From NCBI GenBank assembly GCA_019637295.1, contig JAHBVX010000013.1, positions 1 to 64,000 on the forward strand: a DNA stretch of 64,000 nt. Direction: 5' to 3'. This stretch comes from Polyangiaceae bacterium. GTDB lineage: Bacteria > Myxococcota_A > Polyangia > Polyangiales > Polyangiaceae. The notes beneath the pieces were generated by a model. That model had not been told where the DNA came from. It worked only from the letters and a program-made list of their open reading frames with translations, and did no database searches. Shown here one piece after another: positions 43,949 to 57,620 of the stretch. Numbering within the stretch: position 1 is the stretch's first letter; each line of letters starts with the position of its first letter. A program made the translations under genes and the position numbers.

Positions 43949-45892
43949 TCAGCGCCGAAACGGCACCACGTACCCGTCGCGCTTCAGCGTATGCACGTCG
44001 AAGAATTGACGGGCTAGCGAGACCCAGGACGCTGCGTTGACCTCGTCGTGGGCGATCAAGTTGCGCTCTTCCTTCGGGTCCGAGGCCAGGTCGTACACCT
44101 CCTCGGTGTTCACCCGATCGTCCAGGATGACCTTGTAGCGATCCTGCAGCAGGAGCATCTTCTTCTGGCGCCCCTCAGCGGCGATGGGTCGGGTGAGCTT
44201 CGGCGGCTCCTTGCTGGTGAAGCGAGCGAGGGTCTCGCCCATGCAGCGGCCCGGCGTGGGCAGGCCGAACAGATCCAAGATCGTGGGGCCGAGGTCGATG
44301 ACGCTGACGGGCGTGCTGACGCGCTTGGCGGTGGGCGTGGGGGTGCGCACGAAGAGCGGGACGCGAAGTAGCTCGTCGTACAGGTGCGCGGAGTGCCCCT
44401 TCACGCCGCGCTGGCCGAAGCCCTCACCGTGGTCCGAGGTCACGATCAGGACGGTCCGGTCCGAGAGCCCACGCGCCCTGACCGCCGCGTCGATGCGCGC
44501 GAGCTCACCGTCCACCACCTTCAGCTGACTGAGGTGCTTCTCGAGAGCAGAATCTCCCGGGGCGCCGCGCCGCATCCCGTCGTGGGTATCGAGGTAGTGA
44601 GTGAACCCGAACGCGGGCCCGTCCCCGAGCTTCGAAAGCTGCGCGATGAACTCGTCCGTGATGGTAGCCGCGGGCGTGTACTTCGTACCCCGCGGCGGCG
44701 GAGTGTGCACCTCCTCGGCGAAGCCCCGCACGACCCCGATGTCGTTGACCAACCAGGGCGCGGGCGTGACGTTGAAGGTACGAACTCGAGCGCGAGTCAA
44801 GAACTCGGGGAACCGCGGAGTCTCGTCCGCCGCGGGCCAGATGTTGCCTCGATGCTTGGACCAATAGAGCTGCGAGAAGTACACGCACGAGAACAGGCTG
44901 CTCATGGTGTAGACGGTCTGCGCGCCGGGGGTTCGAGCGTGGTCGAACGCCAGCGCGCCGTCGCGTAGCTTGGCCAAGAACGGCATGTAGGCGTCGTGCT
45001 TGCCCTCGAGCACCACGTCGGCCCGCAGCCCGTCGATGGACAAGAGGAGCACCACCGGCGGCCCGGGCAGTCGCACCGCGCGCGACGGCGGGACGGGCGG
45101 CGCGGACGCACGCGGCTGAAACCACGCCCGACTGTGTACGGGGATGGGCGCCTCGGTGCGCGTGCGTGCGGCGTGGGCGCGCGCGAGCAGCGGCATGACG
45201 ACCGAGCCATCGCTGCGCAAGAGCTCCATGACGACGGGGGTACCAGGCCAAACGCCGACGCAGAACGCAGCCAGCGACGACGCCAGCGCCCAGGGAGTGA
45301 CCCGGACTACGACGGGCCAGCCCCGCGGCAGCGCCACCCGGCTCAGCGCGGCCGTGATCACCGCGATGCCCATCAGCGTCACGAACAGGTGAACACCCGC
45401 ATAGTCCGCGGGCAAGAGCACGTGGTTGGCCGCGAGGGCGCCGAGCCCAAGGATGGCCAGCGCGGCGCGGAGCAGCGGCTTCTGCGGCACGGTGCCGAGC
45501 CAGACCGCCGCCGAGAACGAGGCCCCGACGCCGACGCCGACGGCGCCGTGAACCACCTTGGGAAAGGACGGCGCGACGCGCCAGGCGAAGTTGCTGACGT
45601 CGCTGGTGAGCACTGGGATGGAGAGCGAGGCCGCCGCGACGCCGACAGCGATGACGGCGCCGCGACGTCCAAGCCCGACGCGCTGCAGGGCGGCGACGAC
45701 GGCGGCGAGGAGCAGGCCGAGGGCGAGGTGTTGACCCGCATCGAACAGGTGGCGCAGCGCACGCACCGCCGCTCCCCCCGCCGACGGGGATTGCAGCCCT
45801 ATGGCCACGGCGTTGACGAGCACCAGCGCCGTGGTGGCGACCACGAGCGCTCGCACGGGGCCGAGCGGCGGACGCTTCACCGCGTGGGTCAC
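43949..45892 (-). CDS. Membrane-anchored sulfatase-superfamily protein (Thr nucleophile), paralogue 2
   Basis: About 647 residues: five or six N-terminal membrane helices, then the alkaline-phosphatase/sulfatase fold (LLLSIDGLRADVV, TSDHGEGFGQRG). The nucleophile position is Thr in TPGAQTVYTMSSL. It shares with the gene at 27881 the stretch YFSQLYW and the endings FDVHTLKRDGYVVPFRR / FHVHTHRQEGYQVPYRR, so they are paralogues. Likely an LtaS/EptA-like phosphotransferase or phosphodiesterase acting on envelope lipids or glycans. GTG 45892 is preferred; the frame extends to 45982. Divergent from the TPR-HEAT gene. Confidence 0.8.
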   Translation of the reverse strand: MTHAVKRPPLGPVRALVVATTALVLVNAVAIGLQSPSAGGAAVRALRHLFDAGQHLALGLLLAAVVAALQRVGLGRRGAVIAVGVAAASLSIPVLTSDVSNFAWRVAPSFPKVVHGAVGVGVGASFSAAVWLGTVPQKPLLRAALAILGLGALAANHVLLPADYAGVHLFVTLMGIAVITAALSRVALPRGWPVVVRVTPWALASSLAAFCVGVWPGTPVVMELLRSDGSVVMPLLARAHAARTRTEAPIPVHSRAWFQPRASAPPVPPSRAVRLPGPPVVLLLSIDGLRADVVLEGKHDAYMPFLAKLRDGALAFDHARTPGAQTVYTMSSLFSCVYFSQLYWSKHRGNIWPAADETPRFPEFLTRARVRTFNVTPAPWLVNDIGVVRGFAEEVHTPPPRGTKYTPAATITDEFIAQLSKLGDGPAFGFTHYLDTHDGMRRGAPGDSALEKHLSQLKVVDGELARIDAAVRARGLSDRTVLIVTSDHGEGFGQRGVKGHSAHLYDELLRVPLFVRTPTPTAKRVSTPVSVIDLGPTILDLFGLPTPGRCMGETLARFTSKEPPKLTRPIAAEGRQKKMLLLQDRYKVILDDRVNTEEVYDLASDPKEERNLIAHDEVNAASWVSLARQFFDVHTLKRDGYVVPFRR

Positions 45893-46023
45893 CGTGACAC
45901 TTTCCCAGACCCCGACATGACTCCCGAGAAACTGCCACGACCCGCCGCCGGACGCCAAATCCGAGAGCAGCCCCGCGTTCAAAGGGAAATGAGGCCGGTC
46001 TTTGCGGAGCTGACCGAACGATC

Positions 46024-46029
46024 TAGGCT
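46024..46029 (+). promoter_or_regulatory. Putative -10 box (TAGGCT), near-leaderless
   Basis: TAGGCT lies 7 nt before GTG 46037, predicting transcription starting at the start codon and favouring GTG 46037 over ATG 45989, which would be upstream of the box. Confidence 0.5.
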
Positions 46030-46036
46030 ATCCATC

Positions 46037-49000
46037 GTGCGCGTGCGCTCCGTCACCCTCGTCTGCCTAGCTGCCGCGCTGATTGGGACCACGCCGTCTG
46101 CCCACGCGGCGCCGAGCGGGTCCGGCGCGGTCCTCGGTCAGTTCAACCCCGGCGGGCGTCAGAAGCCGAAGCCAGGCACCTTCAAGCCCGGGGGGCGCCC
46201 CCCGACCGGTAAGCCCGCAGGCAAGCCCCCAGGCAAGCCCGGCGCCAAGCCCGGCGCTGATCCCGACGAAGCGGGCGCCAAGGGCCCCGGGGCGGACGCC
46301 CTCATCGCCCGCTACACGGCCATCGTGCTGTCGCAGCCTTCCGCGCAGTTCCCGCTGCAGCGCTTGGCCGACTTGTATCGCGAGCGCGACGGCAACCTGC
46401 AGAAGCTGGTCGCAGACTTCGAGAAGCGCGCGGCGGATCCGAGCCAGCCCGCCGCGCTCGTGGCGCTGGCCGGGATTTACAAGCACGACGGCCAGCATGA
46501 CCGGGCGATCGCGACGTACGAGAAGGCGATCGCGGCCCGACCGGGCGACCCGGAGGCGATCGTCGCCCTCGCCCATTTGCTCTTGGACCGCGGGAACAAG
46601 GCCGACGCGCTCGCTCGCTACGAGAAGGCGCTACCCCTGCTCAAGAGCGACGCGGATCGCGAGCAGACGCTGCGGACCATGATGCAGCTCGCGCTCGACT
46701 TGAAGAAGTACGATGACGCCAAGCGCCACCACCGCGCGCTGGTCACCCGTGCCAAGGGCTCGTTCTACGTCAAGGGCGAGCTCGCCCGGGAGCTCTCCTT
46801 GCGCAACGATCACGAGCGCGCCGTCGCGGAGTACCGTGAGCTGGTCAAGGGCGCCAGCGGCGACAACCGCGTGCTCGCGCCGGCGCTGAGGGACTTGGGC
46901 CGGGCCCTGGCGAAGAACGCCCAGCGCAAGGAGGCGATGGACACCCTGCGCCGCGCGCTACAGATCGCCGGAGCTCAGTCCGGCATTCGCACGGAAATCT
47001 ACGAGATCATCGTGGAGATCTACCGCGCCGAGGACCGCCTCCGCGAGCTGATCGCGGAGCTGGAGAAGAAGGGCGGGCGCGAGTTCGAGGAGCTGCGCAT
47101 GCTGGGCGGGCTCTACGAGGAGACCGGGCAGGTCAAGAAGGCGCTCGAGATCTATCGCCAAGCCCTGGCCAAGAAGAACAACGACATCACGATGCGGCTG
47201 AAGGTGGTGCAGCTGCTGCAGATCCAAGGTGAGCTGGACGCGGCCATCAAGGAGTACGAGGCACTGATCCGCGCGGCTCCGCGCAACCCGGACTACGTCT
47301 TTCAGCTCGCCGAGGCGCTGATTCAGCGCGGAGATCGCACACGCGCGCTCGAACACTTGAAGCAGCTCGAGGCGCGCTCGGGCAACGACGAAGAGACCCT
47401 CGCCGCGCTGGTCGACTTCTACGAGCGCGTGGAAGAGAAGGCTCGCGCGCTGGACGTGCTGCAGCGCCTGGGCAAGATGGGTTCTCGCGATCCGCGCCAC
47501 CTGGTGGAGCTCGGCGGTCGCTACTGGGAGGAGGGGGACAAGCAGAAAGCACTCACGACGTGGCAGCGCATCAAGGTGATCGTCCCCGACAAGGCGCGAG
47601 CACAGCACACCCTGGGCGAGGTGTACCTGGAGCACGACATGCCCGAGCAGGCCCTCGAGGCCCTGCGCGAGGCCGTGAAGCTGCAGCCCAAGCAGACCAA
47701 GTACAAGAAGGCGTACGCGCTGGCGCTCGAGCGCACCGGCAGCACCGCGGGCAGCCGGGAGGCGCGCAACCGTCGCTACGACGAGGCCCGCAAGCTGTGG
47801 GAGGAGCTGCTCAAGGAGTCTGGGGACAACAAGCACCTGGCGCGCGAAGCGCGGCAGCACATCGTCACGCTGTGGAGCCTGGTAGGGCAGCTCGATCAGC
47901 GCATGGTCCCGCTGGCGCGACGCCTCGCCGCCACCCCGCCGGATCTGGAGGCCGGCCGACTCCTGGGAGAGGCGCAGATCCGCCTGCGACGCTACCCGGA
48001 TGCTGAGCGAACACTGCAGAAGGTCGTCGCGGCGGCCCCCGGCGATGGGGAGACGCTCACGCGCCTCGAGCGGGTGCTCGTGCTGCAGCGCAAGCTCAAG
48101 GAAGCCATCACGGTGCTGAAGAAGCTGATCGAGGCGGACCCGAAGCGTGCGCGCGAGGCGTATCAGCGCATGGCGCAGTACGCGGCCGAGTTGTACCGGG
48201 ACGACGAGGCCATCGAGTACGCCGCGCGCGCCGTCGAGCTGTCCCCGGATGACGCCGAGGGACACAAGAAGCTGGGCGAGATGTACCGGCGACGGCAGGA
48301 CACCCCACGAGCGATCAGCGCGTTCCGACAAGCGCTGCAGAAGAACGACCGCCTGTTCCCGGTGTACTTTCAGCTCGCCGAGCTGCTCTTGAGTCAGGGC
48401 GAGATCGACGAAGCCGACCTGCTCTTGCGCCGCGTCGTGCGCGCTTCGCCGGACGAGGACCTGGTAGCGCAGGCGACGCGCCTGTCCATGCAGGTGAACC
48501 TCGGGCGCGGCACACTCGAGAGCCTGGAGCGAGAGCTCTTGCCCGTCGCCCTCGGCAACCCGAACAAGCCGATCTACCGGCGACTCCTAGTGGACATCTA
48601 CGGCGCGATGGCGTTCCCGCTGGCGCACCGTGCTCGGAGCCCGGATGCGAAGACGGCGGACGAGGCGCGCCTCGCGCTGCAGAAGATCGGCGAGCGAGCC
48701 GTCAAACCCTTGCTCGACGCGCTCACGGACGATCGTGAGAGCCAACAGCGCATCGCCATCGAGCTACTCGGCTTCATCGAGAACAAGAGCGCGGGCTCGG
48801 CGCTGTTCGCCTTCGCCACCGGTCCGGCGGCGAGCGAGCTGCGCGCTCGCGCGATGATCGCCATCGGTGCGCTCGACGATTCGGCCATGCTCCCCAAGCT
48901 GTCCGAGTTGCTCGCGCCCGGCGGCAGCGTGCGTGCGGACGAGTCCGATCCCGTGATTCTGGCGGCCGCGTGGAGCGTAGCGCGCATGAGCCACGCGTCA

Positions 49001-50170
49001 GCCCGAGGGCTACAGGCCAAGATGCTGAGCAGCGACGCCCCGAGCATCCGTGCACTCGGCGCGCTGGGCCTCGGGCTGGCCAAGGACGCGCGCTTCCTGA
49101 AGGAGCTGATCCAGACCGCGCGCTCGCTGGAGGCTGGACCACTTCCCCGCGCCGCCGCGGTGTTCGCCCTCGGCGAGCTGCGGCGACCGGAGGGTGTCGT
49201 CGCGCTGACCGAGGCGAGCGAAGCCAGCGACACGGCTGTGCGATCGACGGCGCTGGTCGCGCTCGCACGCACCGGAGCGCCCGAGGCCGCCCGCGCCATC
49301 GCCGAGGCGCTGGTCACGCCGGACGCGGAGCTGACCCGCGCCGCCGTGGCCGCCGCGTTGGTTCTGGCAAGCGGCAGTCATCGCAGCCGTCCGGGCGCGC
49401 TGCTGGCGCCAGAGGGACGCATCGACGTCGCGGAGCTGCTCGGCCGCATGCTGCCGACGGGATACTCTCCGCAGGAGCACGTGCGTGCGCTGGTCAAGCT
49501 CGGGCCCGCGCTAGCCGAGTCGAGCAAGGCCGCGGTGCAGAGCTCCCCGGAGCGAGCCGAACGCGTGGCGGCAGCCTTGCTCGCGCGCTCCGGTAGGCCA
49601 GCGTTCGGCGAGTTCACGCAGCAGCTCGAGCAAGTGGACAAGGCCGAGCGTGCCGCCGCAGAGAAGACCGCCGAGACGATCGCCGCAGCGGTGGTCGGCC
49701 CCTTCGTCGTCCTGACGACGCACCCCGCCCCAGCCACCCGCGCGCTCGCGGTCCAGTTCCTGGCGACCCGTGGCGAGCCCGAAGCGGCCAGCACCGTCGT
49801 CTCGATGCTGGGGGATGCAGACGAGTCGGTGCAGCGCTCCGCGCTCGACGCCGTGGCCCGCGGGCGACGCTCGACCGCCACCGGGGCTGTCACCAAGCTG
49901 CTGCGCGAAGCCCTGAGCTGGTCGCTTCGCATTCGGGCCGCGGCAGCCCTGGCCGAGATCGCGTCGAGCCCGGCTCACAAGACCGGAGCGCTCGAGGCCC
50001 TGAGCGGCGCGGCGCGCTCGGACGACGTAGCCCTGGTGCGCGAAGCCGCGGTGACGGCGCTCATCAAGCTGGATCGCGACGCTGCGCGGGCCGTGCTGGG
50101 AGAGGTCGCTGGCAAGGACGCCGAGCCCAAGGTGCGCGCAGCAGCCCAGCGCGGATTGGAGACCAAGTGA
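46037..50170 (+). CDS. Large exported TPR and HEAT repeat protein
   Basis: About 1377 residues. Signal peptide (TLVCLAAALIGTTPSAHA), a Gly/Lys/Pro-rich linker, then many tetratricopeptide repeats (YEKAIAARPGDPEAIVALAH, LAEALIQRGDRTRALEHLKQ, YQRMAQYAAELYRDDEAIEYA), and from about residue 860 HEAT-like helical repeats (LLDALTDDRESQQRIAIELL, LGDADESVQRSALDAVARG, ending KVRAAAQRGLETK). A long solenoid with two repeat types suggests a periplasmic scaffold. GTG 46037 gives a normal signal peptide and has a -10 box 7 nt before it. Coupled by a GTGA overlap to the next lipoprotein gene. Confidence 0.85.
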   Translation: MRVRSVTLVCLAAALIGTTPSAHAAPSGSGAVLGQFNPGGRQKPKPGTFKPGGRPPTGKPAGKPPGKPGAKPGADPDEAGAKGPGADALIARYTAIVLSQPSAQFPLQRLADLYRERDGNLQKLVADFEKRAADPSQPAALVALAGIYKHDGQHDRAIATYEKAIAARPGDPEAIVALAHLLLDRGNKADALARYEKALPLLKSDADREQTLRTMMQLALDLKKYDDAKRHHRALVTRAKGSFYVKGELARELSLRNDHERAVAEYRELVKGASGDNRVLAPALRDLGRALAKNAQRKEAMDTLRRALQIAGAQSGIRTEIYEIIVEIYRAEDRLRELIAELEKKGGREFEELRMLGGLYEETGQVKKALEIYRQALAKKNNDITMRLKVVQLLQIQGELDAAIKEYEALIRAAPRNPDYVFQLAEALIQRGDRTRALEHLKQLEARSGNDEETLAALVDFYERVEEKARALDVLQRLGKMGSRDPRHLVELGGRYWEEGDKQKALTTWQRIKVIVPDKARAQHTLGEVYLEHDMPEQALEALREAVKLQPKQTKYKKAYALALERTGSTAGSREARNRRYDEARKLWEELLKESGDNKHLAREARQHIVTLWSLVGQLDQRMVPLARRLAATPPDLEAGRLLGEAQIRLRRYPDAERTLQKVVAAAPGDGETLTRLERVLVLQRKLKEAITVLKKLIEADPKRAREAYQRMAQYAAELYRDDEAIEYAARAVELSPDDAEGHKKLGEMYRRRQDTPRAISAFRQALQKNDRLFPVYFQLAELLLSQGEIDEADLLLRRVVRASPDEDLVAQATRLSMQVNLGRGTLESLERELLPVALGNPNKPIYRRLLVDIYGAMAFPLAHRARSPDAKTADEARLALQKIGERAVKPLLDALTDDRESQQRIAIELLGFIENKSAGSALFAFATGPAASELRARAMIAIGALDDSAMLPKLSELLAPGGSVRADESDPVILAAAWSVARMSHASARGLQAKMLSSDAPSIRALGALGLGLAKDARFLKELIQTARSLEAGPLPRAAAVFALGELRRPEGVVALTEASEASDTAVRSTALVALARTGAPEAARAIAEALVTPDAELTRAAVAAALVLASGSHRSRPGALLAPEGRIDVAELLGRMLPTGYSPQEHVRALVKLGPALAESSKAAVQSSPERAERVAAALLARSGRPAFGEFTQQLEQVDKAERAAAEKTAETIAAAVVGPFVVLTTHPAPATRALAVQFLATRGEPEAASTVVSMLGDADESVQRSALDAVARGRRSTATGAVTKLLREALSWSLRIRAAAALAEIASSPAHKTGALEALSGAARSDDVALVREAAVTALIKLDRDAARAVLGEVAGKDAEPKVRAAAQRGLETK

Positions 50171-50676
50171 GCGGACGTTCTGCCACCTGGGGGTTCGTGC
50201 TGCTGGCGATGGTGACGGGGTGTCGCACCCTCGATCGTTTCGACACCTCCAACGGCGACGCCTACTGCGGCTCGATCGTGAGCGCAGGCTTCGTACGCCA
50301 GGGCTACCCGCCCAATCTGCGACTCGCGCTGCAGCTGGACATGGCCCGGCTGTCCACCACTCCGGGACGCATCACGACCGACGACGCGGCGACCAGCCCC
50401 TGTGCGGGCAAGCCACGCTTCGACCAGTCTGTTCTCCGTGCGAGCGATGAGGTGCAGAACGACCTGCTCTCCACCCTCGATTTCGGCACGGGTCGCGACG
50501 AGAACTTCGTGACGTGGGTGGAGAGTAGCTGCGAGGGCCCCGTGCTCGCCGTCGTCTCGCTGATGAAGAACGACGAAGTCGAGGTCCGGTTGCTCAAGCC
50601 GCCGCCCCCTGGCGAGACGACCGCGGGATTCGCGTTGTTTCAGCTCACCCGTCGCTCCGGCGGTTGCGACTACTGA
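50167..50676 (+). CDS. Small lipoprotein coupled to TPR-HEAT protein
   Basis: A 169-residue lipoprotein (lipobox VTGC) starting at GTG 50167, whose GTGA overlaps the TPR-HEAT stop by 4 bp. The mature domain has YCGSIVSAGFVRQGYPPNLRL and five cysteines after the lipidated one, but no recognised family. Co-translation suggests it anchors or partners the TPR-HEAT scaffold. It is followed 4 nt later by tsaD. Confidence 0.75.
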   Translation: MSGRSATWGFVLLAMVTGCRTLDRFDTSNGDAYCGSIVSAGFVRQGYPPNLRLALQLDMARLSTTPGRITTDDAATSPCAGKPRFDQSVLRASDEVQNDLLSTLDFGTGRDENFVTWVESSCEGPVLAVVSLMKNDEVEVRLLKPPPPGETTAGFALFQLTRRSGGCDY

Positions 50677-50680
50677 CGCC

Positions 50681-51736
50681 ATGCTCGTCCTCGGCATCGA
50701 GACGAGCTGCGACGAGACCGCGGCCGCGGTCGTCGACTCGGATGGTCACGTGCTCGCGGACGTGGTCCACAGTCAGGTCGCCCTCCACGCGCCCTACGGA
50801 GGCATCGTCCCCGAGCTCGCGTCGCGGGATCACCTGAGGAATCTGCGGCCGGTGGTCGAGGCAGCGCTCGAGCGCGCGTCGCTCGGCATCGGGGACATCG
50901 GCGGCATCGCGGTGACCGCACGTCCGGGCCTGTCCGGCGCACTGCTGGTCGGGACGGGGTTCGCGCGCGGCCTGGCCTACTCGCGAGGGCTGCCGGTCGT
51001 GGGCGTCGACCACCTCGTCGGGCATTTGCTGGCCGCGTTCCTACGCTACGACGACGTGGCCTCGGCCCCCCCCGAGTTTCCATTCGTGGCGCTGCTCGCG
51101 TCGGGTGGACACACCGCGCTCTATCGCGTGGACGGCCTCGAACTCTCTCAGGTGCAGGAGCTCGGGGCCACGCGCGACGACGCCGCCGGCGAGGCCTTCG
51201 ACAAGGTGGGCAAGCTGCTCGGTCTCGGCTACCCGGGCGGACCTGTGATCGATCGCTTGGCGCGCGAAGGCGACCCGAGCGCCATCCCTCTGGCGCGGCC
51301 CATGAAGCAGAGCCGTAGCCTGGAGTTCAGCTTCTCCGGGCTGAAGACCCAGGTCATGCGCTGGGTCGCCGAGAACGGCGCTCCCAAGGACGACCAGACC
51401 CTGCGCGACTTGTGCGCGTCCTTTCAGCGCGTCGTCGTGGACTCGCTCGTCAAGAAGGCCGTCACCGCGGCTACGGGCGAGCGCGTGGGTACGCTCGTTC
51501 TCGCCGGCGGGGTCGCCGCCAACTCGGGCCTGAGGCAACACGCCCGCGAGGCGGCGGAGCGCGCAAGTCTCGCACTGGTGGTCCCGCCCCTGCGCGCTTG
51601 CACGGACAACGCCGCGATGATTGCCTTCGCGGGCTCGACTCGCTTGGCGCGCGGCGAGGACGACCGCTTCACCCTCGAGACGAGCCCGCACACGGCACTC
51701 CTGCAGGTCACGCGCAAGGGGCGCGGGCGGCGCTGA
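50681..51736 (+). CDS. tsaD: tRNA N6-threonylcarbamoyladenosine synthase subunit TsaD
   Basis: A 351-residue essential enzyme that transfers threonylcarbamoyl to A37 of ANN-decoding tRNAs with TsaB/TsaE. It shows LGIETSCDETAAAVV, the metal-binding DHLVGH (HxxxH), LLASGGHTALYRV, DAAGEAFDKVGKLLGLGYPGG, and the second ATPase motif LAGGVAANSGLR with DNAAMIA. Start ATG 50681, 4 nt after the previous stop. It abuts the convergent PilZ-AMIN gene with no gap. Confidence 0.96.
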   Translation: MLVLGIETSCDETAAAVVDSDGHVLADVVHSQVALHAPYGGIVPELASRDHLRNLRPVVEAALERASLGIGDIGGIAVTARPGLSGALLVGTGFARGLAYSRGLPVVGVDHLVGHLLAAFLRYDDVASAPPEFPFVALLASGGHTALYRVDGLELSQVQELGATRDDAAGEAFDKVGKLLGLGYPGGPVIDRLAREGDPSAIPLARPMKQSRSLEFSFSGLKTQVMRWVAENGAPKDDQTLRDLCASFQRVVVDSLVKKAVTAATGERVGTLVLAGGVAANSGLRQHAREAAERASLALVVPPLRACTDNAAMIAFAGSTRLARGEDDRFTLETSPHTALLQVTRKGRGRR

Positions 51737-53758
51737 TCAGCCCGACGATTTCTTGGTCTTCTTCGTCGCGGTCTTCGCCTTGGGCTTGGCGCTCGTCGGA
51801 GCAGCGCCCTTCGTACCGGGCGCGCTGATCAGGAACTCGACGAAGTCCTTGCGCAACCGCACGCGGTAGCCAGGCACGCTCTCCTTGAACTGGAAGGTGA
51901 CCTCCGCACCATAGGAGCCGTTACGAGTGCGAACGCGGGCGATGCGAGCGTCGCGGCTCTCGATGCCTTTGGGCGACTCCATCACCTTGACCTCGGGGAC
52001 GACGACCGTGAAGCCCGTGGGGTTCACGGCGCCCTTGATCGCGCCACCGGGTCGATCGAGGCGCAAGCGGTGGATGGTGGGCGTGGAGACGTTGCCCTTG
52101 CCCCAAGGCTTGACGTCGGCCGGGTTGACCTTCTGGGCCACCTTGTCCTGCCGGGCGGGCTTGTCCTCGAAGGTCTCATCGGGAGCCTCCTTGGCGGCAG
52201 CCATCTCCTTTTCTTCCTCGGACTCTTCGGCGGCGGGGGCGCCGAGCTCGGGTGCGTCGCCGAGCGGCGCCGGCTCGAGGGTAGCCATCGGCGTGGGACC
52301 GAACAGCGGCACCTCCGCGGTGAGACCGTCCGTCGTCGGCTCGGCTTCTTCAGCGGATGCGCCCTTGCTTGGAGCACCTTTGCCCGCCGCACCCTTGACG
52401 ACCGGATCGCCTTGCTCGTCTACCTCGGTGACGTCTCCAAGGTCGGCCGCGACGGTCTTGCTCACGGCAGGTGCGTCGCTCTCCGCTCCCGGCGGCGGGG
52501 TCGGCTTCTTCAACGCGAGCACGCTCACGGTGGCCATCAGCAGCGCGACCGCCCCGGCCCCGGCCAGCTTGCGCATCTTCCTCTTGCGCTCGCCGGGACT
52601 CGCGGCCACCGGCGCAGGTTGCGCCGCTGCCGCCTCGGAGCGAGGAGGCATGGATTGGGGGCGCAACCGGCGACCATCCGCGCTGAGCACGCCCGAAGGT
52701 GGCGGCGCCGTGGTGCGCCGCGGTTGCGCGGCCTCGGTACGGGCTTGGCGATACTCGGTGAACTTGGCGCGCGCGCCCTCGAACAGGCGCCCGAGCCCCA
52801 CGGCGGCGGACCCACCCGCACTCACCATCGCGGCGCTCGCGCGTTTGACGCCCTGACCCGCCGCATCCGCTACGGCGCCGGCGCGCGTCTTGAACTGGGC
52901 TGCGTCCTCGACGATCTCGGCTTCGTCGGAGAACTGAGCCGGCACCTCGGCGGGCTCGGCGTCGAACGCCTGGTCTTCGTCCTCGTCCCCGCCCGCGCCG
53001 AGCTCGTCCCCAGCCCCCATCGGGGGCGCCGGCGGTCTCACCGTGGCTGTCACGGCGGCGCGCATCTTGGGCGAACGCGCGGTAGACGATGGCTCTGAGT
53101 CGATCACGCTCGGCTCGGGCGTATGTTCCTCCACGTCCTGGAAGCGCAGCGCAACGACCAGCTGAGGGATCTGAGTCTTCGGATCGATCATGACGTCGAC
53201 ACCGAAGATCCGCGCAGGGCGCCGCTGGCTCGTGCCGAGCTCTTCGAGCTCGAGGTTGCGGCCCACCTTGAGAAACTCGAGGTTCGACGCGACCTGCACT
53301 CGGCGCACGTTGCCGGCCTGGATCGACGCCTTCATCGGCGCGCCGAGGCCGTCGATGTGCAAGCGGACCTTGGAGCCGGGACCCGGTGCATCCGCGGACT
53401 CCGACTCCTGCTCGGCAGGCTCTTCGCTGGTGAGCTCGAGCTCGCACAGCGCGCGCAAGGCATCGACGCTTCCACTGTCTAGCGCGGTGAACTGGATGCC
53501 AAACTCACCGCCACGCTCGGCTGGGCTCTGCCAAGCCACGACCCCCTCGACGACAATCTCGCGGCCCTCGTGGTCGAGGCGACAGACGAGCGGGGCGCCG
53601 ATCTCGGGCAAGTAGGCGGTCCGGACGTGCATGCCGCGACCACTCACGTCCACGCTCTCGGCCTCGAAGGGAGGCGCACCCCCTGCGTCGCGGCCGCAAA
53701 TCTCGACCAGCGCTGCCACCGGTACGCGCCTGAGTCCCCCTGCACGTCGCTCTTCCAT
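51737..53758 (-). CDS. PilZ - transmembrane - AMIN-like protein
   Basis: 673 residues. N-terminal PilZ domain (~1-110) with the second c-di-GMP motif DVSGRG (DxSxxG); the arginine cluster RRAGGLRR is one residue longer than the canonical RxxxR. A second beta domain (~130-206), a long disordered acidic/Pro-rich linker, one membrane helix (KLAGAGAVALLMATVSVLAL, ~397-416), another linker, and an AMIN-like domain (~559-645: RLRLDRPGGAIKGAVNP, VTFQFKESVPGYRVRLRKD) with a Lys-rich tail. AMIN domains bind peptidoglycan and position pili secretins or amidases. So it could relay c-di-GMP across the inner membrane to the wall. Start ATG 53758 has AGGAGG 5 nt upstream; the frame continues to 53800. Confidence 0.82.
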   Translation of the reverse strand: MEERRAGGLRRVPVAALVEICGRDAGGAPPFEAESVDVSGRGMHVRTAYLPEIGAPLVCRLDHEGREIVVEGVVAWQSPAERGGEFGIQFTALDSGSVDALRALCELELTSEEPAEQESESADAPGPGSKVRLHIDGLGAPMKASIQAGNVRRVQVASNLEFLKVGRNLELEELGTSQRRPARIFGVDVMIDPKTQIPQLVVALRFQDVEEHTPEPSVIDSEPSSTARSPKMRAAVTATVRPPAPPMGAGDELGAGGDEDEDQAFDAEPAEVPAQFSDEAEIVEDAAQFKTRAGAVADAAGQGVKRASAAMVSAGGSAAVGLGRLFEGARAKFTEYRQARTEAAQPRRTTAPPPSGVLSADGRRLRPQSMPPRSEAAAAQPAPVAASPGERKRKMRKLAGAGAVALLMATVSVLALKKPTPPPGAESDAPAVSKTVAADLGDVTEVDEQGDPVVKGAAGKGAPSKGASAEEAEPTTDGLTAEVPLFGPTPMATLEPAPLGDAPELGAPAAEESEEEKEMAAAKEAPDETFEDKPARQDKVAQKVNPADVKPWGKGNVSTPTIHRLRLDRPGGAIKGAVNPTGFTVVVPEVKVMESPKGIESRDARIARVRTRNGSYGAEVTFQFKESVPGYRVRLRKDFVEFLISAPGTKGAAPTSAKPKAKTATKKTKKSSG

Positions 53759-53763
53759 GAATG

Positions 53764-53769
53764 CCTCCT
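53764..53769 (-). promoter_or_regulatory. Ribosome binding site AGGAGG
   Basis: CCTCCT on the plus strand reads AGGAGG on the minus strand, 5 nt before ATG 53758. This fixes the start of the PilZ-AMIN gene. Confidence 0.8.
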
Positions 53770-53928
53770 GGGGAAGCGAGGTGATTCCTCGCGACCACAC
53801 GGACCCGGGTTAAGGCGCAAACGGGCATCTGGCCAAATTTCGCGCTCTTGGCGGCAAGGCCTTCCGCCGGGACCCGAGCCGGACGCTTGCGTCGCGAGTC
53901 CGGCCGAATGTTGGGATATACGCCCCAC

Positions 53929-54909
53929 ATGGCCCTGACGATCGTGATCCGCTCGGGCGACGATGAGTCGCTGCCGCGACTCACCTTCGACTCCCCTCGG
54001 GTCGTGATTGGCCGCGGGGACGGCTGCGACGTGCGGCTGCCGGACCCGAGCGTCAGCCACCGGCACGCGTCGATTCGACAGCGCGGCACGGACTACATCG
54101 TGCTGGACGAGGGCAGCACCAACGGTACCTTCGTTGGCCCGGTGCGTCTCTCGCCGCACGCGCCACGCCTGGTCCGCTCCGGGGACCTCGTTCGGATCGG
54201 GCGGATCTGGCTGGAGATCCTGATCGAGCAGGCGCTACCCACGACCAACCCCGCCGCCAAGACCTCGGAGATCGCGCTTGGCCTCGTCGCCGAGGCCCTG
54301 GCCGCCCAGGGAGAGCGCAATGGCGCTCGCGTGCTGGTGACCGAGGGACCCGACGCCGGCCGCGAGTTGGCGCTTGCCGCGGTGGGGCGTGTGTACACCC
54401 TCGGCCGGGGCCAGGAGGCGGACCTGGTCCTCACGGATCCGGACGCGTCACGTCGTCACGTGGAAGTGTTCCGGCGCGGCGTCACGATCTTCGTCCGCGA
54501 GCTAGGGTCGAAGAACGGAACCTTGCTGGACGGCGAGAAGCTGGTCACGGAAAGGGAGACCCGCTGGCCCGCCGGCGCAACGCTGTCCATCGGTGCCGAC
54601 CGAATGAGCTTCGAGGATCCGGTCGCCGAGGCGTTGCTCGAGCTGGAACGCGTCGCCGACGAGCGTATGGCGGAGGACGACTCGGTGGACCCGCCCAACA
54701 CCGAAGACGAATCGGAGCCGCCACCGCCCGCCAGCGTCTCCTCCGAAGCGCGCGGTGCTGCGCCCATCGCCGAGGTCCCGCGGCGAACTCCGGAGCGACG
54801 AGTCAAGAGAGCCGGTTGGACCGTGACCGACGTGGTCGTGGCCCTGATCGCCCTCGGCGTCCTGGGCATGAGCATCGTCGGACTTCTGTGGCTGTTCGGG
54901 AGTCAGTGA
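53929..54909 (+). CDS. Double FHA-domain protein with C-terminal membrane anchor
   Basis: A 326-residue protein with two forkhead-associated domains, the phosphothreonine-binding pattern seen twice: VVIGRGDGCDVRLPD / SVSHRHASI / GSTNGTFV and YTLGRGQEADLVLTD / ASRRHVEV / GSKNGTLLDG. A Pro/Glu/Ser linker leads to a C-terminal helix (VVVALIALGVLGMSIVGLLWLF) ending at the stop, so it is tail-anchored with the FHA domains in the cytoplasm. It should bind phosphorylated partners of Ser/Thr kinases. ATG 53929 is chosen over ATG 53908 because a TATACG box ends 6 nt before it. Confidence 0.87.
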   Translation: MALTIVIRSGDDESLPRLTFDSPRVVIGRGDGCDVRLPDPSVSHRHASIRQRGTDYIVLDEGSTNGTFVGPVRLSPHAPRLVRSGDLVRIGRIWLEILIEQALPTTNPAAKTSEIALGLVAEALAAQGERNGARVLVTEGPDAGRELALAAVGRVYTLGRGQEADLVLTDPDASRRHVEVFRRGVTIFVRELGSKNGTLLDGEKLVTERETRWPAGATLSIGADRMSFEDPVAEALLELERVADERMAEDDSVDPPNTEDESEPPPPASVSSEARGAAPIAEVPRRTPERRVKRAGWTVTDVVVALIALGVLGMSIVGLLWLFGSQ

Positions 54910-54918
54910 GCCAGCAGC

Positions 54919-56844
54919 TCACTGCTTCGGCCCCTCGTCGTAGCCCCGCGGCCTGTACTTCTTCTCGACACCTCCGTGCTCCTCGCCCCGGTGCACGATC
55001 TCGGTGGCCAGGTAGGCGAGCCAGGTCCCAGGGTGCTCTTCGGCCATCGCGAGCAGCTCGTCTTGATGCTCGCCGACCGCCTTCTGGTCCCACAGGCACT
55101 GAAGCGCCAGAGCGATCAAGTTGGAGTCGTTCGGTGCCAGGGCGAAGCCGCGCTCGTAGTGCGGAAAGGCATCGTGGGGGCGCTTCATGCGACAGAGCGT
55201 GTCTCCGTAGTAGACGTGGGCCATCGGCCACTTGGGGGCAAGCTCGATGGCTCTACCGTTCAAGACGAGGCGCGTCGGGAGGTCGCTCTTGTGCGCGCCG
55301 ACCATGACCGAATAGTTCAAGTATGCCTTGGCGCTGTTGGGCACGGCGTAGTGCGTAGCGCGCCAGAAGGTCAGATCGTCGCTGTAGTCGAGGGCGTGAG
55401 TGCGAGCCCTGAGCATCTGGAACGCGAACAGGAACGAGACCGTGATCCAGGCGGCTCGTCGGAGACGACCGCTCTGGAGCCACTTCGCCATCAGCACGGC
55501 GAGCACGAAGGAACAGCCGAGCACGGGCAGATACCAGAAGCGCTCGGCGCGAACCGTCGGCAAGATCACCGGGATGTTCGAGTGTGGGAAGTAGGCCACC
55601 GGGACCCACAAGAGACCGAGAGCGACCAGAGCCCACAGGGAGCTCTTGGCCCGATCCCGGGACCAAGTCCGCAGCGCGCGGAACCAGCACGCAAGCGCGG
55701 CGACCGGGGGTAGAGCGAGCAAGAGCCCCCCGAGCACGCTGCCGGGGAAGAGTAGCCGAGTTGGTGCCGGTTCCTGCGGGAACGAGTAGTCCCCCGAGAG
55801 CCGCCAAGGAAGGACCACCTGCAGCAGGCCCGAGGCGTACACACGTAGGGCGCCAGCGATCCGATAGGGCGTGTCGGCCGCAGCCAGCGGGTTGTTCATC
55901 GGGTCCGCCGGCAGACGCGGCTGCGCGAACCAGACCAGGAACGCCTGCATCGCGCGCCTCGGCCACGGCGTCCCGTCCGGCAACGGCTCCGTCATCGACG
56001 CAGGCAGCTCCACCGGGAAGAAGTGCCGGCGCGTGTAGGTGTACGCCACGAGCGCGCTGACCGTCGCGAGCAGTGCCAAGGGCGCACGGAGCGCGGTCAG
56101 CGGGCGCTCGGGGTGCAACGCGGGCGAGAGCGTCACCGCCGCGGCGAACACCAGGGGAACGCCAACGATCACGCTCTCCTTGCTGAACAGCCCCACGAGC
56201 ATGGCGCCGCAGACAGCAAACGGCATCCCCCAGAGCGGGAGACGTAGCGCTCGCAGCGCCAGGATCACGCCCAAGCCACCGAGCACGTCCGCAATGCCCA
56301 CGACGCCGGTGATGGCCTCGGTGAGCACCGCGCTGCACAGGAACACCCCGCCGGCCAGCCAGGCCATGTCACGACGCCGGGTTACGCCGAGCACGAAGCC
56401 GGCGAGCAACGCGGCGTTCACGGCATGGAGCGCCACGTTCACCCAGTGATGCAGCCACGGCAGTTTGCTGACGTTCCAGAGCGCGCGCCAGATCAGGTTG
56501 GGCAACGGACGATACGAGCCGATGCTCCGCGTCGGAGGCAGACCCCAGAAGTCACGACGCAGCACGTCCCGCCAGCCCAGGTCGACCCCGTTGACATACG
56601 GGTTGGCGAGCAGCGCCTCCTGCTCGTCGAAGATGTAGTTGCTCGCGGGGCTGCGCACGAACAGCAGCGCCGCGACGATCAGCGCGGGCGAGAGCGCCAC
56701 CCAGAAGGTAGGGTCGTGCTCAGTGAAGTGGCGACGCACGCGCGTGGGCACCGCCGCGAGCCAACCACGCAGTCTGCGAGCTCGGGCGGGCGCCGGCAGC
56801 GCGGGCGCGCTCAGCTCTGTGGGCTCGGTTCCTCGATCGGCCAC
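54919..56844 (-). CDS. TMTC-like polytopic protein with C-terminal TPR
   Basis: About 641 residues, ten or more membrane helices, with the early motif YIFDEQEALLANPYVNG and SYRPLPNLIWRALW, typical of the TMTC/O-mannosyltransferase-like GT-C family, then C-terminal TPR-like helices (RLVLNGRAIELAPKWPMAHVYYGD, YERGFALAPNDSN). GT-C enzymes use polyprenyl-phosphate sugars on the extracytoplasmic face; the acceptor is unknown. The start is uncertain: GTG 56844 overlaps the SDR stop by 34 bp, GTG 56748 is an alternative, and the frame is open to 56919. Confidence 0.78.
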   Translation of the reverse strand: MADRGTEPTELSAPALPAPARARRLRGWLAAVPTRVRRHFTEHDPTFWVALSPALIVAALLFVRSPASNYIFDEQEALLANPYVNGVDLGWRDVLRRDFWGLPPTRSIGSYRPLPNLIWRALWNVSKLPWLHHWVNVALHAVNAALLAGFVLGVTRRRDMAWLAGGVFLCSAVLTEAITGVVGIADVLGGLGVILALRALRLPLWGMPFAVCGAMLVGLFSKESVIVGVPLVFAAAVTLSPALHPERPLTALRAPLALLATVSALVAYTYTRRHFFPVELPASMTEPLPDGTPWPRRAMQAFLVWFAQPRLPADPMNNPLAAADTPYRIAGALRVYASGLLQVVLPWRLSGDYSFPQEPAPTRLLFPGSVLGGLLLALPPVAALACWFRALRTWSRDRAKSSLWALVALGLLWVPVAYFPHSNIPVILPTVRAERFWYLPVLGCSFVLAVLMAKWLQSGRLRRAAWITVSFLFAFQMLRARTHALDYSDDLTFWRATHYAVPNSAKAYLNYSVMVGAHKSDLPTRLVLNGRAIELAPKWPMAHVYYGDTLCRMKRPHDAFPHYERGFALAPNDSNLIALALQCLWDQKAVGEHQDELLAMAEEHPGTWLAYLATEIVHRGEEHGGVEKKYRPRGYDEGPKQ

Positions 56845-57620
56845 AGATCGCCCCAGAGTGAGCTCCCGCCGTCGATGTAGTACGTCGAGCCGGTCACGTA
56901 GTCGTTCTGGTCGCTGCACAGGAACAGCACCACTCGGCTCACCTCCTCAACGGTACCCAAGCGCTTGAGAGGCGTGGCGCGACGGGCGAACTCCAGCGTA
57001 TCGTCCCCGTACTGGGAGGTCCCCGAAGAGCGAATGGTGCCGGGCGCGCAAGCGTTCACCCGGATGCCGAGGGAAGCCCACTCCACCGCCAGCGTCTTGG
57101 TCATGTTGTCGACGCCCGCGCGGGCCGCGCCCGTGTGGACCATGCCCGGGAATCCCCGCGCGATGTCCGCGATGACGTTCACGATGCGCCCTCGACGCGC
57201 GGGAATCATCGCGCGATTGGCGGTCGCGTGGGTCATCGTGAACGGACCGATGAGGTTGTTGCGCACTACGGCCTCGAAGCCGCGAGGCGACAGGCCCTGC
57301 GCGGGGCTCGGGAACTGCCCGCCCGCGTTGTTCACGAGTACGTCCACCTTGCCGAAGCGCTGCAGGACCTCGTCCACGAATGCCCCGCAAGACTCGGGCT
57401 CGCGAATGTCGAGCTCTCGCCCGCAGGTCTTGCCGCCGGCCACGCTCAGCGCTTCGAGGCCCGCCTTCACGTTCTCTGCCTTGCGACTGCCTATCGCCAC
57501 CGCGGCACCGAGGGACAACAGCTCACGAGCCACGGCCAGCCCGATACCCGTGCCACCACCCGTCACGATCGCGACCTGGCCATCGAACAGCCCGTCACGG
57601 AAGATGCTCTGGAAACCCAC
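56811..57620 (-). CDS. SDR oxidoreductase, dienoyl/enoyl-CoA-reductase-like
   Basis: A 269-residue short-chain dehydrogenase: VTGGGTGIGLAVAREL (NADP-binding), LVNNAGGQF, and the end YIDGGSSL. The usual YxxxK is replaced by HTGAARAGVDN, the pattern found in 2,4-dienoyl-CoA and peroxisomal trans-2-enoyl-CoA reductases, which use other residues. So fatty acyl-CoA reduction is more likely than alcohol oxidation. Start GTG 57620. Its 3' end overlaps the start of the TMTC-like gene. Confidence 0.85.
   Translation of the reverse strand: MGFQSIFRDGLFDGQVAIVTGGGTGIGLAVARELLSLGAAVAIGSRKAENVKAGLEALSVAGGKTCGRELDIREPESCGAFVDEVLQRFGKVDVLVNNAGGQFPSPAQGLSPRGFEAVVRNNLIGPFTMTHATANRAMIPARRGRIVNVIADIARGFPGMVHTGAARAGVDNMTKTLAVEWASLGIRVNACAPGTIRSSGTSQYGDDTLEFARRATPLKRLGTVEEVSRVVLFLCSDQNDYVTGSTYYIDGGSSLWGDLWPIEEPSPQS

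Follow-up and report, generated by a model that had tools for sequence, protein, structure and literature searches.

In the window, by which we mean the whole stretch of 64,000 nucleotides that was analysed, one gene encodes a protein in which a PilZ domain is followed by a second beta-barrel, a single membrane helix, a long linker and, at the C-terminus, a domain that by its predicted fold and its profile is a divergent AMIN domain. The combination of PilZ and AMIN is real and conserved, and its architecture is well supported. The protein is a membrane PilZ effector, which is an already known kind. PilZ and AMIN in one protein were not found described in the open-licence literature of PMC, as far as its texts were available there and with subscription papers mostly uncovered; one paper there mentions both domains but not as parts of a single protein, and the same literature gave no named family of this architecture, in agreement with an earlier note that had been made on this DNA from its letters. 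Regarding the function, the leading model, which we hold tentatively, is that the protein would act as a landmark on the cell wall switched by c-di-GMP.

The gene is read from an ATG at 53758, with AGGAGG directly 5' of it, to a stop codon at 51739-51737 (open-frame reading), and its product of 673 residues gives a single match at E <= 0.001 in its own genome of 7.65 Mb. The 3' end of the gene abuts the stop codon of tsaD (50681–51736, plus strand), and the two stop codons stand tail to tail at 51736/51737 with zero bases between them; tsaD also comes directly next in locus L003, and in L002 it lies beyond one called frame. The features of the locus are collected in Table 1. The full-length AlphaFold2 model has a mean pLDDT of 57, with the C-terminal beta domain (residues 551–645) near 90, and an alignment with seven orthologues, taken from metagenome-assembled genomes labelled Myxococcales, Myxococcota, Polyangiaceae, Polyangium aurulentum and delta proteobacterium, falls into three conserved blocks.

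Table 1. Features of the PilZ-AMIN gene and its divergent neighbour (positions in the window; residues of the 673-residue protein)
Feature	Position	Strand	Basis
PilZ-barrel-TM-AMIN gene, 673 aa	51737..53758	-	open frame
Divergent AMIN domain (predicted), residues 551-645	51824..52108	-	model, VIA-align, hhalign
Pro/Ala/Glu-rich, mostly disordered linker, residues 417-550	52109..52510	-	pLDDT < 50 over most
Single transmembrane helix, residues 398-416	52511..52567	-	hydropathy; model helix 389-414
Predicted helical cytoplasmic segment, residues 279-342, low confidence	52733..52924	-	AlphaFold2, block pLDDT about 51-66
Second conserved beta-barrel, residues 124-212, PilZ-like by fold only	53123..53389	-	VIA-align
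PilZ domain, residues 1-112; RRx5R (R4, R5, R11), D37xS39xxG42	53423..53758	-	Pfam, VIA-align, motif counts
Stretch between the divergent genes, putative shared promoter region	53759..53928	.	gap short in most adjacent genomes
Double-FHA gene with C-terminal hydrophobic helix, 326 aa	53929..54909	+	Pfam FHA E 3.7e-34, two stretches

The N-terminal domain is assigned without difficulty. PilZ (PF07238) is the single domain that Pfam reports, and it matches residues 14-106 at E 3.3e-12 with 47.1 bits against a gathering cut-off of 22.5, and the DVSGRG motif by which the earlier note had recognised the domain is found at residues 37-42. With Pfam at E <= 10, PilZ was matched in all eight members of the first alignment, window protein included, the best at 3.5e-16. 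When the AlphaFold2 model of the domain was compared by VIA-align with solved PilZ structures, 5y4r_C came out best (Z 13.0, 100 residues aligned, 3.3 Å), and a profile search of the PDB with 13 PilZ domains returned nothing at E <= 0.1. The NCBIfam paralogue domain TIGR02266 gives a weak match at residues 31-98 (E 1.1e-5), whose 25.5 bits lie under the curated cut-off of 68.7, so that by this score the protein does not belong to that family.

The topology was examined over 53 non-duplicate loci, the window's own included, which were left from 58 initial loci after the duplicates L009, L010, L011, L013 and L016 had been dropped. The order PilZ, then helix, then C-terminal domain was found in all 53, a count which leans towards intact members since 20 of these loci had been chosen mostly for matches at both ends. 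In the window protein there is one strongly hydrophobic segment, with its best 19-residue window at about residues 398-416 and the basic stretch ERKRKMRK immediately on its N-terminal side. Over the loci, the strongest hydrophobic segment was placed after the barrels and before the C-terminal domain in 53/53, it is the only one at the threshold used in 49/53, and the PilZ side carries more net positive charge in 40/53. These counts agree with both the single membrane helix proposed by the earlier note between PilZ and the AMIN-like domain and its placing of the two domains on opposite sides of the membrane, against which it had set the outcome of both on one side. The linker, which would be periplasmic, varies from 59 to 163 residues between helix and AMIN domain in the 53 loci. 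As the membrane is crossed by a single helix, to which a long disordered linker is attached, a direct conformational signal across the membrane is unlikely, and clustering or recruitment of partners is likelier.

The identity of the C-terminal domain needs more care. Modelled alone, residues 545–650 reach a pLDDT of 91.9 and a pTM of 0.84. Compared by VIA-align with 998 chains, the domain finds AmiC at the top (4bin, Z 7.8, 88 residues aligned, 2.8 Å, chain residues 45–145) and two structures of PilQ in the following rows (4aqz, Z 7.1, 92 aligned, 3.4 Å; 4av2, Z 6.8, 88 aligned, 3.4 Å), all of them values under 8, at which by the program's own caution a match can be a common arrangement. The fourth row falls to Z 4.8, two units under this trio, which spans most of the domain. 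The matched chain ranges of 4bin, 4aqz and 4av2 are presumably the AMIN domains of these proteins. The PilQ of N. meningitidis has two AMIN domains, according to the accessible part of PMC10653833. At the level of sequence, hhalign aligned a profile of 53 C-terminal domains over 89 columns, with a probability of 93.3% and P 2.8e-7, to a profile of 33 Pfam AMIN-model sequences from the own genome and from genomes of the phylum. The probability was 87.3% with the 20 distant rows alone and 89.7% with the 33 nearer rows alone, while the controls gave 1.1% for the reversed profile, 1.5% for the best of 50 column shuffles and 1.2–2.4 for five control profile pairs; against a target of only the three AMIN sequences of the own genome it was 6.4%.

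Other searches of the C-terminal domain gave little. Pfam AMIN has no match in the window protein up to E 10 and is matched in 2/43 members with a best E of 0.042, to which unrelated families are superior (DarA_N at 0.0048, DUF1918 at 0.025), and NCBIfam did not show an AMIN domain. Foldseek with the isolated domain returned nothing at E <= 0.001, its best rows being small heat-shock proteins and its first PilQ standing at rank 24 with E 1.1. In the PDB profile search PilQ 3jc8, which we take to be the PilQ of M. xanthus, came first but at E 0.47, and the E values of unrelated chains were 0.55 and 0.59. With Pfam and the PDB profile search uninformative and Foldseek finding nothing significant, the assignment rests on VIA-align and on the comparison of profiles. 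By predicted fold and profile homology the domain belongs to AMIN, in a form so divergent that the Pfam model misses it, which concerns a threshold of detection and not the nature of the domain. The AMIN-like domain suggested in the earlier note was thus recovered in a confident fold prediction, where the lack of such a fold would have told against it. By analogy with other AMIN domains it may bind peptidoglycan.

Between the PilZ domain and the helix lies a second beta-barrel that the earlier note did not report, at about residues 128-208 in the AlphaFold2 model with a block pLDDT mostly of 74–83, and it was detected in 49/53 loci. In VIA-align, residues 126-210 match cellulose synthase BcsA (9fp0_A) with Z 10.2 and an rmsd of 1.9 Å over 74 aligned residues and 2l1t with Z 8.8, followed by MreC and protease barrels with Z 7.4 and below. 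That it is a true PilZ domain found no support in the sequence (hhalign 1.2%), and the PDB profile search and Pfam gave unrelated weak matches only; in its modelled form the barrel is PilZ-like in fold, without a match at the level of sequence. Open frames of about 180-210 residues that match the second barrel only occur in G002 (G002:C104:36102-36398), G040 (G040:C232), G018 (G018:C1:60633) and G081 (G081:C258), which suggests that in these genomes the barrel also occurs on its own.

Regarding the distribution, the family profile is matched in 92/96 genomes of the order, in some of them only partly, and 4/96 are without a match. For the phylum, 187 genomes (31 of the own order and 156 others) were searched with a 44-row profile, with scores given to no more than seven first-look candidates from each genome. 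In the own order, 31/31 genomes have a listed match that extends into the C-terminal domain, and among the matches listed for the 156 sampled genomes outside it none reached that domain. Some match was found in 62 of these 156; of those listed, two lie in the linker region (G131, G177) and the rest in the PilZ part. The intact family therefore looks specific to the order, which, going by how the relatives are named, we take as Polyangiales, and nearly universal in it.

A conserved companion of the gene is a divergent gene for a double-FHA membrane protein, which carries the motifs SHRH/STNG and SRRH/SKNG and a hydrophobic segment at residues 302-320; the protein (53929-54909) also matches the YscD-type FHA model. 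The FHA gene was matched at E <= 1e-20 in 76/96 genomes, where the best match of each genome was taken and paralogues may be included. Both genes are listed in 75 genomes and stand on one contig in 52 of them, and in 45 of these 52, from eight families, they are divergent and at most 1.5 kb apart. The other seven are still divergent at 1.6–46 kb, a distance that in three cases results from the C-terminal part alone being listed. The FHA gene adjoins the PilZ-AMIN gene in L117 and L118 too, whose genomes missed the threshold of E <= 1e-20 for FHA. When scored by locus, adjacency was found in 18/27, with L107 and L124 negative since the FHA match was drawn out by a long opposite frame, and the genomes of these two (G030, G042) are adjacent in the count by genome. 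In the own taxonomic family both genes occur in 27 genomes, but they are adjacent in no more than 9 of these (and on one contig in 11), and no FHA match was found in the available stretch of L005-L008, L122 and L123, so that the linkage seems to have been lost in part of this family. G014 and others of the family likewise keep the PilZ-AMIN gene without an adjoining FHA gene.

The pairing of the genes suggests a joint function of the two proteins, whose contact may be made through phosphothreonine. In the PilZ-AMIN protein, a TPEPSVI-like motif after the second barrel and an RRTTAPPP-like motif ahead of the helix are common among members from the own family but not throughout the order, and are only candidate targets of the FHA domains. 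Neighbouring protein kinases are a possible source of the phosphothreonine: the kinase cluster c12, an example of which was recognised by Pfam, occurs near the locus in 4/21 stretches, a number that does not imply enrichment over expectation. A protein-kinase-like gene was also seen by eye near the pair of genes at L003:2576-4832.

In the leading model, the protein would sit in the inner membrane by its single pass with the N-terminus in the cytoplasm, and the AMIN domain, on its long flexible tether, would bind peptidoglycan, probably of the septal or polar wall, and thereby position the protein. The PilZ domain together with the second barrel would sense c-di-GMP, and the bound state would alter self-assembly or recruit partners, so that the location would be determined by AMIN and the state by PilZ, and the FHA protein, encoded head to head, would be a phosphothreonine-dependent partner. 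Where the protein sits (septum or pole), its contact with the FHA protein, the direction of signalling and the binding of ligands on both sides of the membrane are all parts of this proposal. Several studies, seen here in extracts, speak for it. AMIN domains have been called localisation modules (PMC12403147), and M. xanthus PilQ depends on its AMIN domains for recruitment to septum and poles, likely because they bind the wall (PMC10653833). In the same organism polar assembly is kept symmetric by a burst of c-di-GMP at cytokinesis, and the burst was suggested to localise a landmark that possibly binds peptidoglycan (PMC11255338). A PilZ domain joined to an AMIN domain across the membrane fits this description, in another order. 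The fuller proposition would make the pair a core module of the order, in which a c-di-GMP receptor held by AMIN at septal or polar peptidoglycan is assembled or gated by the FHA protein, joins c-di-GMP with Ser/Thr phosphorylation and is of the landmark kind suggested for M. xanthus; this we consider possible but doubtful.

Whether the PilZ domain could serve as such a switch depends on its ligand motifs, which were counted in 44 of the 50 listed rows of the alignment. In canonical PilZ domains that bind c-di-GMP the second motif is (D/N)xSxxG, which the window protein has as D37xS39xxG42 and which was found in 33/44 rows, with Gly for Ser in 9/44 and Glu at the first position in 2/44. The other motif, with RxxxR as the binding motif of PilZ domains (PMC8316039, available portion), is represented in the window protein by RRx5R rather than by the canonical spacing. 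R11 is invariant in 44/44 rows; counted from it, a further Arg is found at -6 in 36/44, at -7 in 35/44, at -5 in 4/44 and at the canonical -4 in 4/44. The Arg motif is thus longer than canonical, as the earlier note had said, by two residues in its conserved spacing and not by one, since R10, from which the one-residue figure came, is not conserved. As GGDEF domains occur in 96/96 genomes of the order, the ligand is probably available, and the PilZ domain may bind c-di-GMP, with an unusual Arg spacing; some members may not bind it, given the canonical spacing in so few rows and the Gly for Ser.

These counts bear on a rival explanation, which we consider rather unlikely, namely that the protein is an envelope tether or scaffold independent of the nucleotide, in which the PilZ fold now binds protein and the FHA partner supplies the regulation. 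The lack of Arg at -4 in 40/44 rows, the rows with Gly for Ser and the strong pairing with the FHA gene would all suit such a scaffold. However, the invariant R11, the frequent Arg at -6 and the serine motif kept in three quarters of the rows (33/44) make the site look modified rather than lost, and GGDEF domains are present in all 96 genomes of the order that were searched.

An accessory role in type IV pili, in which the AMIN domain would join PilQ or the pilus machine and PilZ would tune assembly by c-di-GMP, is in our view unlikely. It has in its favour that the PilQ frame of the own genome (at C20) has two Pfam AMIN matches, that PilM is over the cut-off in 93/96 genomes and that in M. 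xanthus the motility driven by type IV pili is affected by some PilZ proteins (PMC8316039, in its accessible text). However, the genomes in which PilM is not over the cut-off are G053 (75% complete), G001 and G026, among the ten tested for PilQ the same three have none over the cut-off and 7/10 do, and G026 and G001, both drafts of 98% completeness, keep the PilZ-AMIN gene, which matches profile positions 2–578 and 32–578, respectively; PilM is present in G055, a member of the genus to which G026 belongs. Two genomes of different families that retain the gene without the pilus markers argue against an obligatory pilus role, with the reservation that drafts can miss genes. Moreover, no pilus genes were recognised among the neighbours in the window scanned with Pfam or, as judged from scanned examples, among the 13 neighbour clusters, of which c5, c6 and c8 are without a Pfam match. 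The PilZ-AMIN protein is probably not simply a part of the pilus, and of the wall- or pilus-associated module proposed in the earlier note the pilus side is weakened.

Least probable, and to us quite improbable, is that AMIN contacts another periplasmic or membrane protein instead of the wall with PilZ controlling the complex in the manner of Alg44. The layout resembles that of Alg44, and the linker has the length to bring AMIN to such partners, but among the subset of neighbours scanned with Pfam no operon for export or secretion was recognised. The AMIN domain of FliO in C. jejuni is required for FlhB levels (PMC12403147, excerpt), which speaks for this reading in so far as AMIN need not act on the wall alone.

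Set against known systems, the protein with its wall landmark model has several partial relatives. It is like Alg44 of Pseudomonas in its cytoplasmic PilZ, one membrane helix and periplasmic output part, and the PilZ domain of Alg44 is among the structural matches of the model. Alg44 controls the export of alginate and its periplasmic part is a membrane-fusion-like domain, whereas the PilZ-AMIN protein has the AMIN domain, the second barrel and the long linker. With YcgR, PlzA, VCA0042 and MrkH, which are the top Foldseek matches of the full model, it shares two cytoplasmic beta-barrels. In YcgR-like proteins the N-terminal YcgR-N barrel is followed by PilZ; here, unlike in them, PilZ comes first and the second barrel next, and then the membrane helix and AMIN. 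It resembles the AMIN domains of AmiC and PilQ in fold (Z 7.8 and 7.1) and by profile homology to Myxococcota AMIN sequences, and differs in that its AMIN, under the detection of Pfam, sits C-terminally on an inner-membrane PilZ protein and not on an amidase or secretin. M. xanthus has 24 PilZ proteins, of which 14 are PilZ-only, while some others have signalling domains and four have DnaK or DnaJ domains; a combination with AMIN is not mentioned among them in the available part of that paper (PMC8316039).

If the landmark model is true, the same polypeptide would hold a c-di-GMP receptor and a wall-recognition domain and so connect the messenger directly with a site on the wall. The effector that turns the cytokinetic burst of c-di-GMP into polar assembly in M. 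xanthus is still sought, according to the text seen of PMC11255338. The PilZ-AMIN family is probably not that effector itself, as none of the matches listed from outside the order extends into the C-terminal domain. For a different order of myxobacteria it would supply a concrete molecule of the landmark kind together with a conserved partner gene, so that the landmark idea becomes directly testable.

No Rfam match at gathering score was found in 50000–57000 and no tRNA in the window, and the frame at 54919-56919 is without a Pfam match. Clusters of pantothenate kinase, PAS/GAF histidine kinases and a PPC-domain protein, and further ones of a protein kinase with an AAA domain, a PLP enzyme and poly(A) polymerase, occur in 4–8/21 stretches and are not counted among the partners of the gene. 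The large frame at 44996-50170, with TPR and then HEAT repeats, has a relative near the locus in L002, and its N-terminal part as called may be non-coding. In L006 and L008 a small gene, PhoU-like by eye, follows the PilZ-AMIN gene.
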